Program-made: the position numbers and the translations under genes
The notes under the pieces: model-generated
Databases searched by the model: none
Seen by the model: the letters and a program-made list of their open reading frames with translations, nothing else
What the model was told of the DNA's origin: nothing
DNA from: Candidatus Binatia bacterium
Lineage (GTDB): Bacteria; Eisenbacteria; RBG-16-71-46; SZUA-252
Assembly (NCBI GenBank): GCA_035631035.1
Contig: DASQJL010000060.1
Span: 62,001 to 126,000, forward strand
DNA: 64,000 nucleotides
Direction: 5' to 3'
Shown here: positions 12,063 through 55,244 of the stretch, piece after piece
How the letters are laid out: the number at the start of each line of letters is the position of its first letter
Position numbering within the stretch: the stretch's first letter is position 1

Positions 12063-12629
12063 CTACACCCAGACCGATGCCTTGCGGGTCCACTCGCTTT
12101 CGGGATAGCGCTCGCGCAGCAGCACCGCCGTGTCGCGCAGCGGCGCGGGCTGGTTCTTCGACTTGTACGCCGAGACCCCCGCCCAGTAGCAGGCCTCGGG
12201 CGCGGCGCCCGCGCGAGGATGCTCCTCGCAGACGGCGTGGAAGCGCCGCTCGGCGCCCGCGAAGTCCTCCCGCTCGTAGAGGAGGCGTCCCAGTCCCATC
12301 TCGAGCTGGGCCAGGAAGTCGTCCGCCGGCAGGAACCCCTCGATCCGGTACCGCTCCGTTCCATCGGGCTCCAGCACGAGCTGGGTGGGCGTCCACGTGG
12401 CGTGGAAGCGCTGGAAGGTCTCCGGCTGCTGCTTGATGTGCGCCTTGACCGGGATGAAGTTGTCGGTGATGAAGCGCGCAACCCGCTCGTCGGGATAGAC
12501 CTCGGCTTCCAGCCGAGCGCATCCGCTTCACATGGGGGCCGCGCTAAAATCCAAGAGGAGCGGCTTGGTTCCGGCCCGGGCCTGCGCCAGGGCATCGTCC
12601 ACGTTGGTGAGCCAGGGGATCGTCGCCAT
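12063..12629 (-). CDS. thioredoxin-like protein with in-frame TGA, probable selenoprotein
   Basis: Read through the TGA at 12530-12528, this is one continuous 188-codon frame. It begins MATIPWLTNVDDALAQARAG and continues LLLDFSAAPM-U-SGC-ARLEAEVY. The TGA falls exactly on the first cysteine position of a thioredoxin CxxC motif, giving U34-S-G-C37 after the usual beta strand. The thioredoxin pattern continues with FIPVKAHIK and WTPTQLVLEPDG (cis-Pro region). Residues about 110-188 look like TPR-type helices (ERRFHAVCEEHP, AACYW-like). A hairpin fitting a bacterial SECIS follows the TGA. The start is ATG 12629 with a GGGAGGG ribosome site. A nonsense mutation is the alternative, but both sides of the TGA keep family similarity and frame. 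No selA, selB, selC or selD is seen in the window. Confidence 0.82.
12501..12517 (-). promoter_or_regulatory. candidate bacterial SECIS hairpin
   Basis: On the minus strand CTCGGCT-GGA-AGCCGAG forms a perfect seven-base-pair stem with a GGA loop. The loop starts 17 bases after the TGA. Known bacterial SECIS elements lie directly downstream of the UGA, with the apical loop about 16-37 bases away and a G among the first loop bases; this fits. Confidence 0.72.
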
Positions 12630-12643
12630 GATGGAACCCTCCC

Positions 12644-13120
12644 ATGTCGAATAGAACGAGCGCCGGGCTAATGATCTTCCGCCGCCGCGGCGCGTCGTTC
12701 GAGGTGTTGTTGGTGCATCCGGGGGGACCGTTCTGGAAGGACAAGGACGCGGGCGCGTGGTCGATTCCGAAGGGGGAATTCGAGGACGACGAGCCGGCGC
12801 TCGACGCCGCGCGCCGCGAATTCGAAGAGGAGACCGGCTTCGCGGCGGCGGGACCCTTCACGCCCCTCCGCCCCCTGCGGCAGAAGAGCGGCAAGGTGAT
12901 CCACGCCTGGGCGGCCGAGGGCGACCTCGACGCGTCGGCGGTCCGGAGCAATACCTTCACGCTGGAATGGCCGCCGCGGTCGGGGCGGCAGCAGGCGTTT
13001 CCGGAGGTGGACCGGGCGGCCTGGTTCGCCCCGGACGAGGCGGCGCGGCGCATCCATCCCGGCCAGGCGCCGTTCCTCATGGAGCTCACGGAGCACCTCG
13101 CCGGTCGCGGCCGGAGCTAG
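12644..13120 (+). CDS. Nudix hydrolase
   Basis: 158 residues. The Nudix box is complete: G-EFEDD-E, seven residues, then REFEEETGF. The N-terminus SAGLMIFRRRG and VHPGGPFWKDKDAGAWSIPKGE are typical of small bacterial Nudix proteins that hydrolyse nucleoside diphosphate derivatives; the substrate is unknown. The start codon lies only 14 bases from the start of the divergent selenoprotein gene and has no ribosome site of its own. It ends with a four-base overlap with the convergent PBP gene. Confidence 0.9.
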   Translation: MSNRTSAGLMIFRRRGASFEVLLVHPGGPFWKDKDAGAWSIPKGEFEDDEPALDAARREFEEETGFAAAGPFTPLRPLRQKSGKVIHAWAAEGDLDASAVRSNTFTLEWPPRSGRQQAFPEVDRAAWFAPDEAARRIHPGQAPFLMELTEHLAGRGRS

Positions 13121-49861: not shown

Positions 49862-50176
49862 ATGTACGAACTGCAGCAGTCGAACGTCGATGCCGCGCCG
49901 GCCGGAAAGCGCGGGATGTCGTTTGCCGTCGGCGCGATCGTGGGCGCCGGCATCGCACTCCTTCTCGCCCCCACGCCCGGCAAGGACGTGCGGCGCCGAC
50001 TGGGCACCACCGCCCGCAAGGTCGGGACGGGAGCGAAGGACATCATCGGCAAGGCTCGCGGGACCATGGAGGGCGTGCGCGAGGATGCGCGCGTGGCCGT
50101 GGATCGCGGGCGCGAGTCGTTCAACCAGGCCCGCCAGCCGGTGAACCGGCCGGGCTTCCAGACCCACGCCGGCTGA
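49862..50176 (+). CDS. YtxH-domain protein
   Basis: 104 residues. RGMSFAVGAIVGAGIALLLAPTPGKDVRRRLGTTARKVGTGAKDIIGKARG is the YtxH membrane-plus-helix motif, and the tail is basic and Arg/Pro-rich. Paralogue of the 37160-37537 protein. Start ATG 49862 with GGGAGG. First of three small stress genes in the unit. Confidence 0.88.
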   Translation: MYELQQSNVDAAPAGKRGMSFAVGAIVGAGIALLLAPTPGKDVRRRLGTTARKVGTGAKDIIGKARGTMEGVREDARVAVDRGRESFNQARQPVNRPGFQTHAG

Positions 50177-54251: not shown

Positions 54252-55244
54252 TCAGGCGCTCCGGCGCTCGCGGCGCGCCCGGGCTCCGCGCGAGGCGGCG
54301 TTCGTGCCGGTGCGGGCCCGCGCGCGCGACGGGCGAGCCGGGCCGCGAGACGATGCCCCGCGCTTCGCCGAGCGCCGCGCCGTCTTGGGTGCGGGCTCCT
54401 CCTCCGTCGCGCTCGAGGCCGCCCGGGCCTTCGCGGGGCCGGCCTTTCCGCCGTGCCGGCGCTCCAGGCTCTGCTTCAGGAGCGGCATCAGGTCGACGAC
54501 TTCCTTCGCGCGGGCCGGGGCCTCGGCGCCCTTCTCGGGCTCCACGATGGTGTGGGTCTGGCGCGACTTGATCTTCTTCTTCACCAGGGCCATCACGTCG
54601 TCGCGGTACTCGTCCTTGAACGCTTCCGGTCGCCACGCGGCCGTCATGCCGTCGATGAGCTGCTCGGCCATGCGCACCTCGCGCGGAGAGGCGCCCGCCG
54701 ATTTGGCGGGGACGTCGAGGTCGGCGGCGGGGCGGATCTCGTGCGCGTAGCGGAGCAGGTTCAGCACGAGTGCCTGGCCGCGGACGAGGAGCGCGGCCAC
54801 GTGCTGCCGCGTGCGCAGCACCACCTTCGCGATGCCGATCTTGCCGCTCTTCTGGAGCGCCTCGCGCAGGAGCCCGTAGCTCTTGCTCCCCTTCTTCTGC
54901 GGCTCGACGTAGTAGGGCGTGTCGAAGTACAGGGGATCGATCTCCGAGCCGTCCACGAACTCGACGATCTCGACGGTCTGCGTCGCCTTGGCGTTCGCCG
55001 CGCGCAGCTCCTCGTCGCTCAGCACGACGTACTCGTCCGGTTCGTACTCGTAGCCGCGCACGATCTCGTCCCACGGGACCTCGCGGCCCGTGTTCTTGTC
55101 GTAGCGCTTGTAGCCGACCGGAGCGAAATCCTTTCGGTTCAGGAGCGTGAAGCTCATCTCGTCGCTCTTGAGCGCCGGCCGGAGGGTCACCGGGATCTCG
55201 ACCAGGCCGAAGCTGATGCTGCCTTTCCAGAATGCGCGCGCCAT
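54252..55244 (-). CDS. ku: bacterial Ku protein
   Basis: 330 residues. The Ku core (1-260) has ARAFWKGSISFGLVEIPVTL, YKRYDKNTGREVPWDEIVRGYEYE and the FDTPYYVEP block, and a Lys/Arg/Ala-rich C-terminal tail (about 265-330) binds DNA. It binds DNA ends and recruits LigD. Start ATG 55244 with GAGGAG. A sigma-54-like promoter lies about 45 bases upstream. Confidence 0.96.
   Translation of the reverse strand: MARAFWKGSISFGLVEIPVTLRPALKSDEMSFTLLNRKDFAPVGYKRYDKNTGREVPWDEIVRGYEYEPDEYVVLSDEELRAANAKATQTVEIVEFVDGSEIDPLYFDTPYYVEPQKKGSKSYGLLREALQKSGKIGIAKVVLRTRQHVAALLVRGQALVLNLLRYAHEIRPAADLDVPAKSAGASPREVRMAEQLIDGMTAAWRPEAFKDEYRDDVMALVKKKIKSRQTHTIVEPEKGAEAPARAKEVVDLMPLLKQSLERRHGGKAGPAKARAASSATEEEPAPKTARRSAKRGASSRGPARPSRARARTGTNAASRGARARRERRSA

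Follow-up and report, generated by a model that had tools for sequence, protein, structure and literature searches.

We describe a gene, encoded on the minus strand of a 64-kb stretch of DNA (hereafter, the window), in which the UGA at codon 34 is predicted to be read as selenocysteine (Sec), a reading to which we assign a probability of about 95%. The selenoprotein reading draws on several lines of evidence taken together, namely, the conservation of the UGA across deep bacterial lineages, the conservation of a SECIS hairpin downstream of it, the presence of the Sec machinery, the replacement of Sec by Cys in rare homologues, and the thioredoxin fold of the product.

The gene and its surroundings

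The frame extends from an ATG at position 12629 to a TAG ending at 12063, spanning 188 codons with a single in-frame TGA, and the peptide around the recoded codon reads ...DFSAAPM-U-SGC37... (Table 1). The preliminary description of this DNA had claimed precisely such a continuous minus-strand frame, which proved exact to the base; reading of the frame likewise confirmed that the TGA occupies the first redox position of the U34-S-G-C37 motif, and the good ribosome site noted there is indeed in place. As also anticipated, under the standard code the gene shrinks to a 104-aa ORF (12063-12377), the fragment that a gene caller would report.

Table 1. Positions of the selenoprotein gene and its elements in the window
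Feature	Position	Strand	Basis
Selenoprotein gene (predicted), thioredoxin-like UxxC domain plus TPR-like C-terminal helices	12063..12629	-	Frame, profiles, model, 35 TGA orthologues
In-frame TGA, putative U34, first redox residue of UxxC	12528..12530	-	Codon is TGA in each of the 36 TGA-bearing orthologues and TGC in the two full-length Cys homologues
Cys37, predicted resolving cysteine of UxxC	12519..12521	-	Invariant in alignment
Bacterial SECIS hairpin (predicted) CTCGGCT-GGA-AGCCGAG	12501..12517	-	Geometry; frozen synonymous codons; found in every TGA row, missing or negligible in the TGC rows
Pro81 in WTPT, matching the thioredoxin cis-proline	12387..12389	-	Invariant in 31-row alignment; equivalence predicted from fold
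Thioredoxin-like domain, residues 4-110	12300..12620	-	PF13098 and PF13899 over cut-off; AlphaFold, Foldseek
C-terminal helical part like YbgF/BamD TPRs, residues 102-187	12069..12326	-	Profiles, model; weak for the window protein
Ribosome-binding site GGGAGGG, ending 7 nt before the ATG	12637..12643	-	Sequence

A NUDIX gene (12644-13120, plus strand) lies head to head with the selenoprotein gene, and an M20 peptidase gene is located just downstream on the same strand. The start codons of the selenoprotein and NUDIX genes (12629-12644) are just 14 bp apart, so that any promoters would have to reside inside the opposite coding sequences, unless one of the starts is misplaced. No neighbouring gene is conserved across 21 loci, within about 3-6 kb, so that the genomic context gives no hint to the substrate.

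Conservation of TGA at codon 34

We searched the window's class (47 genomes), a draw of 396 genomes from the Acidobacteria phylum and 385 relatives, together with three named Acidobacteria loci. This yielded 36 full-length TGA-bearing sequences, including that of the window, with the TGA located exactly at codon 34 in every one; at least 35 other genomes, from several deep bacterial lineages, thus carry TGA at this codon. Exactly one TGA, at codon 34, was found in 6/6 full-length members from the window's class and in 24 of the 27 matches from the Acidobacteria draw, and other lineages provided five more TGA orthologues. Identity to the window protein ranges from 66% down to 29%, and six residues (W6, U34, C37, P81, G98 and A126, in window numbering) are invariant in a 31-row alignment.

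The preliminary description had proposed a search for homologues with Cys at position 34, and the full-length homologues indeed carry either TGA (36) or TGC (2) at this codon. The only two with TGC (Cys), L087 (genome G381) and L134 (genome G485), both sit on long branches of the tree. Three shorter CxWC proteins (L091, L092 and L136) belong to a different subfamily. No full-length relatives were found on viral contigs or plasmids.

A SECIS hairpin under selection at the RNA level

In the window gene, the TGA is followed, after 10 nt, by a 5′ arm CTCGGCT (12517-12511), a GGA loop (12510-12508) and a 3′ arm AGCCGAG (12507-12501), which form a 7-bp hairpin of -9.8 kcal/mol with the loop 17 nt from the TGA. 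The seven pairs, the G-first loop, the 10-base gap and the 17-base loop distance had all been given exactly in the preliminary description. We applied the published geometry of bacterial SECIS elements, namely, a loop of 3-9 nt with a G within the first two loop positions, at 16-37 nt from the UGA (PMC13188914). By itself, the hairpin is weak evidence in this GC-rich window: among the 1027 TGA triplets of the window, 16.6% precede a hairpin of SECIS geometry with an energy of <= -7.5 kcal/mol, and 7.1% precede one of <= -9.8 kcal/mol, and the shuffle z-score of the window hairpin is only -1.8. Hairpin stability was therefore dropped as proof, and chance was ruled out by comparison instead. Thus, where a selenoprotein had originally been proposed from the TGA and the hairpin, the proposal itself is supported by the orthologues, but the hairpin alone is insufficient.

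Comparative analysis provides more decisive evidence. A hairpin of SECIS geometry follows the TGA in 36/36 orthologues, and the uninterrupted stem alone reaches <= -7.5 kcal/mol in 31/36, although these rows are related, so that the counts are not independent. By contrast, the TGC rows contain no fitting hairpin, apart from a negligible one of -2.7 kcal/mol in L134. Furthermore, across 24 close orthologues, the excess synonymous identity over residues 38-45 (GCT CGG CTG GAA GCC GAG GTC TAY) is 0.398, compared to 0.045 for the remaining codons, with a standard deviation of 0.038 among eight-codon windows elsewhere. The synonymous codons are thus frozen exactly under the hairpin, indicating selection on the RNA at this site. 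Base-pair covariation was not detected beyond shuffles in the nearly invariant stem of the window type, and the stem of the second type described below shows one two-sided change, within shuffles, as can be expected of stems that hardly vary. We accordingly dropped covariation as proof and relied on the frozen synonymous codons and on the loss of the hairpin in the Cys homologues.

The hairpin occupies two different places within the family. The 25 sequences nearest to that of the window group together in a single clade (support 99/96) with a loop distance of 16-18 nt, whereas the other 11 carry (T)GGATGC...GTATCC(A), or a slight variation of it, over different codons, at a loop distance of 23-24 nt. 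In this second SECIS class, GAT is kept in 11/11 sequences, ACG in 9/11 and TAT in 10/11. The hairpin of its members (L083-L086, L088-L090, L131-L133 and L135) lies about 6 nt further downstream than that of the window's clade. The second class is not a single clade on the tree, in which deep branches are weak, and some of its members come from neither the window's class nor the Acidobacteria draw. Under the simplest reading, the ancestor of the window's clade apparently underwent a single relocation of the SECIS.

The selenocysteine machinery

A check of the genome for selA, selB, selC and selD, suggested in the preliminary description, recovered all four components, namely, tRNA-Sec (69.7 bits; anticodon TCA in DNA, UCA in RNA), SelA (557 bits), SelB (359 bits) and SelD (355 bits). 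SelD, too, is predicted to be a selenoprotein in this genome (L123, contig G000:C123; SCAG-U-AAKL), with an in-frame TGA followed by a hairpin. Among the 31 TGA-bearing genomes checked, all but the five from other lineages, SelB is over the cut-off in 29, and either SelB or tRNA-Sec is present in 30. In genome G040, with the TGA form, tRNA-Sec is present and SelB gives a partial match only, not over the cut-off. SelB and tRNA-Sec were not found in G302, which carries the TGA form with an intact hairpin; its best matches are EF-Tu and tRNA-Ser, and the SelB-like match, when read directly, is EF-Tu. The orthologue in question (L072, contig G302:C22) belongs to a 7.3-Mb genome; its assembly may be incomplete, unless the genome genuinely departs from the pairing of Sec with its machinery. 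Of the two Cys-form genomes, the one checked (G381, the other being G485) yielded neither SelB nor tRNA-Sec. Other matches to SelB near 200 bits, in frames of ~400 aa, among them the partial match in G040, were set aside as EF-Tu-like by size and score. Within the window's class, 37/47 genomes have SelB, so that its co-occurrence with the gene is uninformative there and was discarded as evidence.

The same genome contains a second thioredoxin-like gene interrupted by TGA (L119, minus strand of contig G000:C133, with the thioredoxin part at C133:3723-4049), which encodes a lipoprotein-type signal (AIGC), a DFYTDW-U-QWC motif and repeats downstream, and in which a hairpin, GGCTCT-GGA-AGAGTC, lies 3′ of the TGA. 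Similar genes, with one TGA each, are present in G001-G008 and G009, and the thioredoxin part of L119 reached no NCBIfam cut-off. Judging from these sequence features, L119 looks like an exported selenoprotein paralogue.

Fold and domain architecture

The window protein matches PF13098 (Thioredoxin_2) with 47.3 bits and PF13899 (Thioredoxin_7) with 43.4 bits, both against a cut-off of 27. An AlphaFold2 model built from nine orthologues (mean pLDDT 93.3, pTM 0.90) displays a thioredoxin-like domain, with a helix that starts at residue 35, right after U34, followed by five C-terminal helices. Pro81 precedes a strand in the model, in keeping with its predicted role as the cis-proline. The best Foldseek matches are DsbD-gamma, YbbN and DsbH. 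In its sequence, the tail resembles the repeats of YbgF, CpoB and BamD, below the cut-off for the window protein itself (TPR_16, 16.7 bits against 32.7); across the family, TPR_6 matches 14/31 members at E values up to 0.01, with 2e-8 for the best member. Thus, of the thioredoxin-plus-TPR-like architecture proposed at the outset, the thioredoxin part exceeds the profile cut-offs and the helices are present in the model, but the TPR assignment of the window protein stays below the cut-off. Inspection of the window protein reveals no evident signal peptide, so the protein is probably cytosolic.

Discussion

Sec-containing UxxC oxidoreductases of the thioredoxin fold are a long-known kind of protein, and the family described here is new as an unnamed family within this kind: no curated model that we searched names it, with the published PF13098 group compared by description. 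No NCBIfam model reaches its cut-off for the window protein, and other members match the same partial models. The relationship to TsoB (NF045694), VPGUxxT (NF041382/3) and Trx7/PDZ (NF041199) amounts to weak similarity of the thioredoxin domain (best 40 bits), far below the respective cut-offs of 805, 275-350 and 300 bits, and the architectures differ.

A serious contender, which we nevertheless consider somewhat improbable, is that the family is the already published group of 'thiol:disulfide interchange protein' selenoproteins, described from Geobacter and Syntrophus (PMC1794560) and represented by WP_011366075.1, the closest entry in a 2026 selenoprotein inventory (PMC13188914). Indeed, this group shares with the window protein the PF13098 model, the UxxC motif, a predicted redox function and bacterial Sec decoding, and the presence of the second SECIS class beyond the window's class and the Acidobacteria draw points in the same direction. 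The family may overlap with the published group, above all in its second SECIS class. Conversely, the description of the group in the review includes no TPR part, no inventory entry is described as a TPR fusion, and Acidobacteria are not mentioned (PMC13188914), although the comparison was made by description only. Furthermore, the 25-sequence clade that includes the window protein has a SECIS place of its own.

A separate question, which bears on the plain disulfide reductase role and not on the selenoprotein status, is whether the protein could be a seleno-chaperedoxin, that is, a short CnoX/YbbN-like protein in which the TPR part would hold unfolding clients while Sec34 would protect or reduce their cysteines. 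CnoX and YbbN consist of a thioredoxin domain followed by a TPR region, comparable to the thioredoxin and TPR-like parts of the window protein, which lacks an evident signal peptide, and Foldseek ranks E. coli YbbN second and its Salmonella homologue third. In Caulobacter, CnoX, a Trx-TPR protein, is an active reductase (PMC6282202). However, over the whole chain the TM-score is 0.43-0.45 with an rmsd of about 11 Å, so that the domains are arranged differently, the window protein has 188 residues compared to 282 in YbbN, its tail resembles in sequence the YbgF, CpoB and BamD repeats, and the active site is UxGC rather than SXXC or CXXC. A chaperedoxin role therefore appears unlikely. The thioredoxin folds of DsbD gamma, DsbH and DUF255 share the fold and a CxxC-type site with the window protein (TMt about 0.7-0.75 for the first two) but have Cys, whereas the window protein combines a predicted Sec with a TPR-like tail and no evident signal peptide. 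The reactions of DsbD and DsbH take place outside the cytosol.

Reading of the UGA as another amino acid, either Trp, as in a code-4-like reassignment, or Cys, via a modified tRNA, would fit the open frame too, but is very unlikely, considering that two orthologues (L019 and L010) themselves terminate in TGA, that tRNA-Sec, SelA, SelB and SelD are present in the genome, and that a hairpin tied to one codon fits SelB recoding rather than reassignment. Moreover, a codon-usage scan of the 64-kb window detected only three TGA-interrupted coding-like frames, including the selenoprotein gene; the two others, at 50174 (plus strand) and at 54252 (minus strand, where a GTG immediately follows the TGA), resemble normal boundaries between genes and were rejected. 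A pseudogene or a sequencing error, in which a TGC or TGG codon of an otherwise normal thioredoxin-like gene would have mutated to TGA or been misread as such, might be suspected from one TGA in one draft contig taken alone, but is next to impossible given the same-codon TGA in 35 other genomes with otherwise intact frames, which makes sequencing error untenable, and the frozen synonymous codons after the TGA.

Under the selenoprotein reading, SelB and tRNA-Sec would decode UGA34 as Sec, directed by the hairpin located directly downstream, inside the coding region. Sec34 would then attack a disulfide or an oxidised sulfur, and Cys37 would resolve the resulting selenenyl-sulfide, with the helical part possibly docking a partner or client, so that the product could function as a cytosolic seleno-thiol:disulfide reductase. 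Judging from the fold and the motif, we somewhat favour such a plain disulfide reductase role for the protein. A bolder scenario, which we regard as doubtful, would combine all these features in an almost exclusively Sec-using, cytosolic Trx-TPR family that was missed by methods based on Sec/Cys pairs, in which both the UGA and the protein were retained as the SECIS was relocated within the gene (16-18 compared to 23-24 nt); the members of this family would act as seleno-chaperedoxins. The rarity of Cys forms in the family fits a limit stated by the authors of deep-Sep, whose filtering may remove families that lack Cys homologues (PMC12013277).

The results presented here add a predicted selenoprotein family, represented in 36 genomes from several deep lineages, that is truncated by standard gene calling and unnamed in curated models, and illustrate why families with few Cys forms can escape predictors based on Cys pairs. 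Furthermore, the occurrence of two SECIS places in one family offers a natural test of the movement of a recoding signal within a coding sequence.
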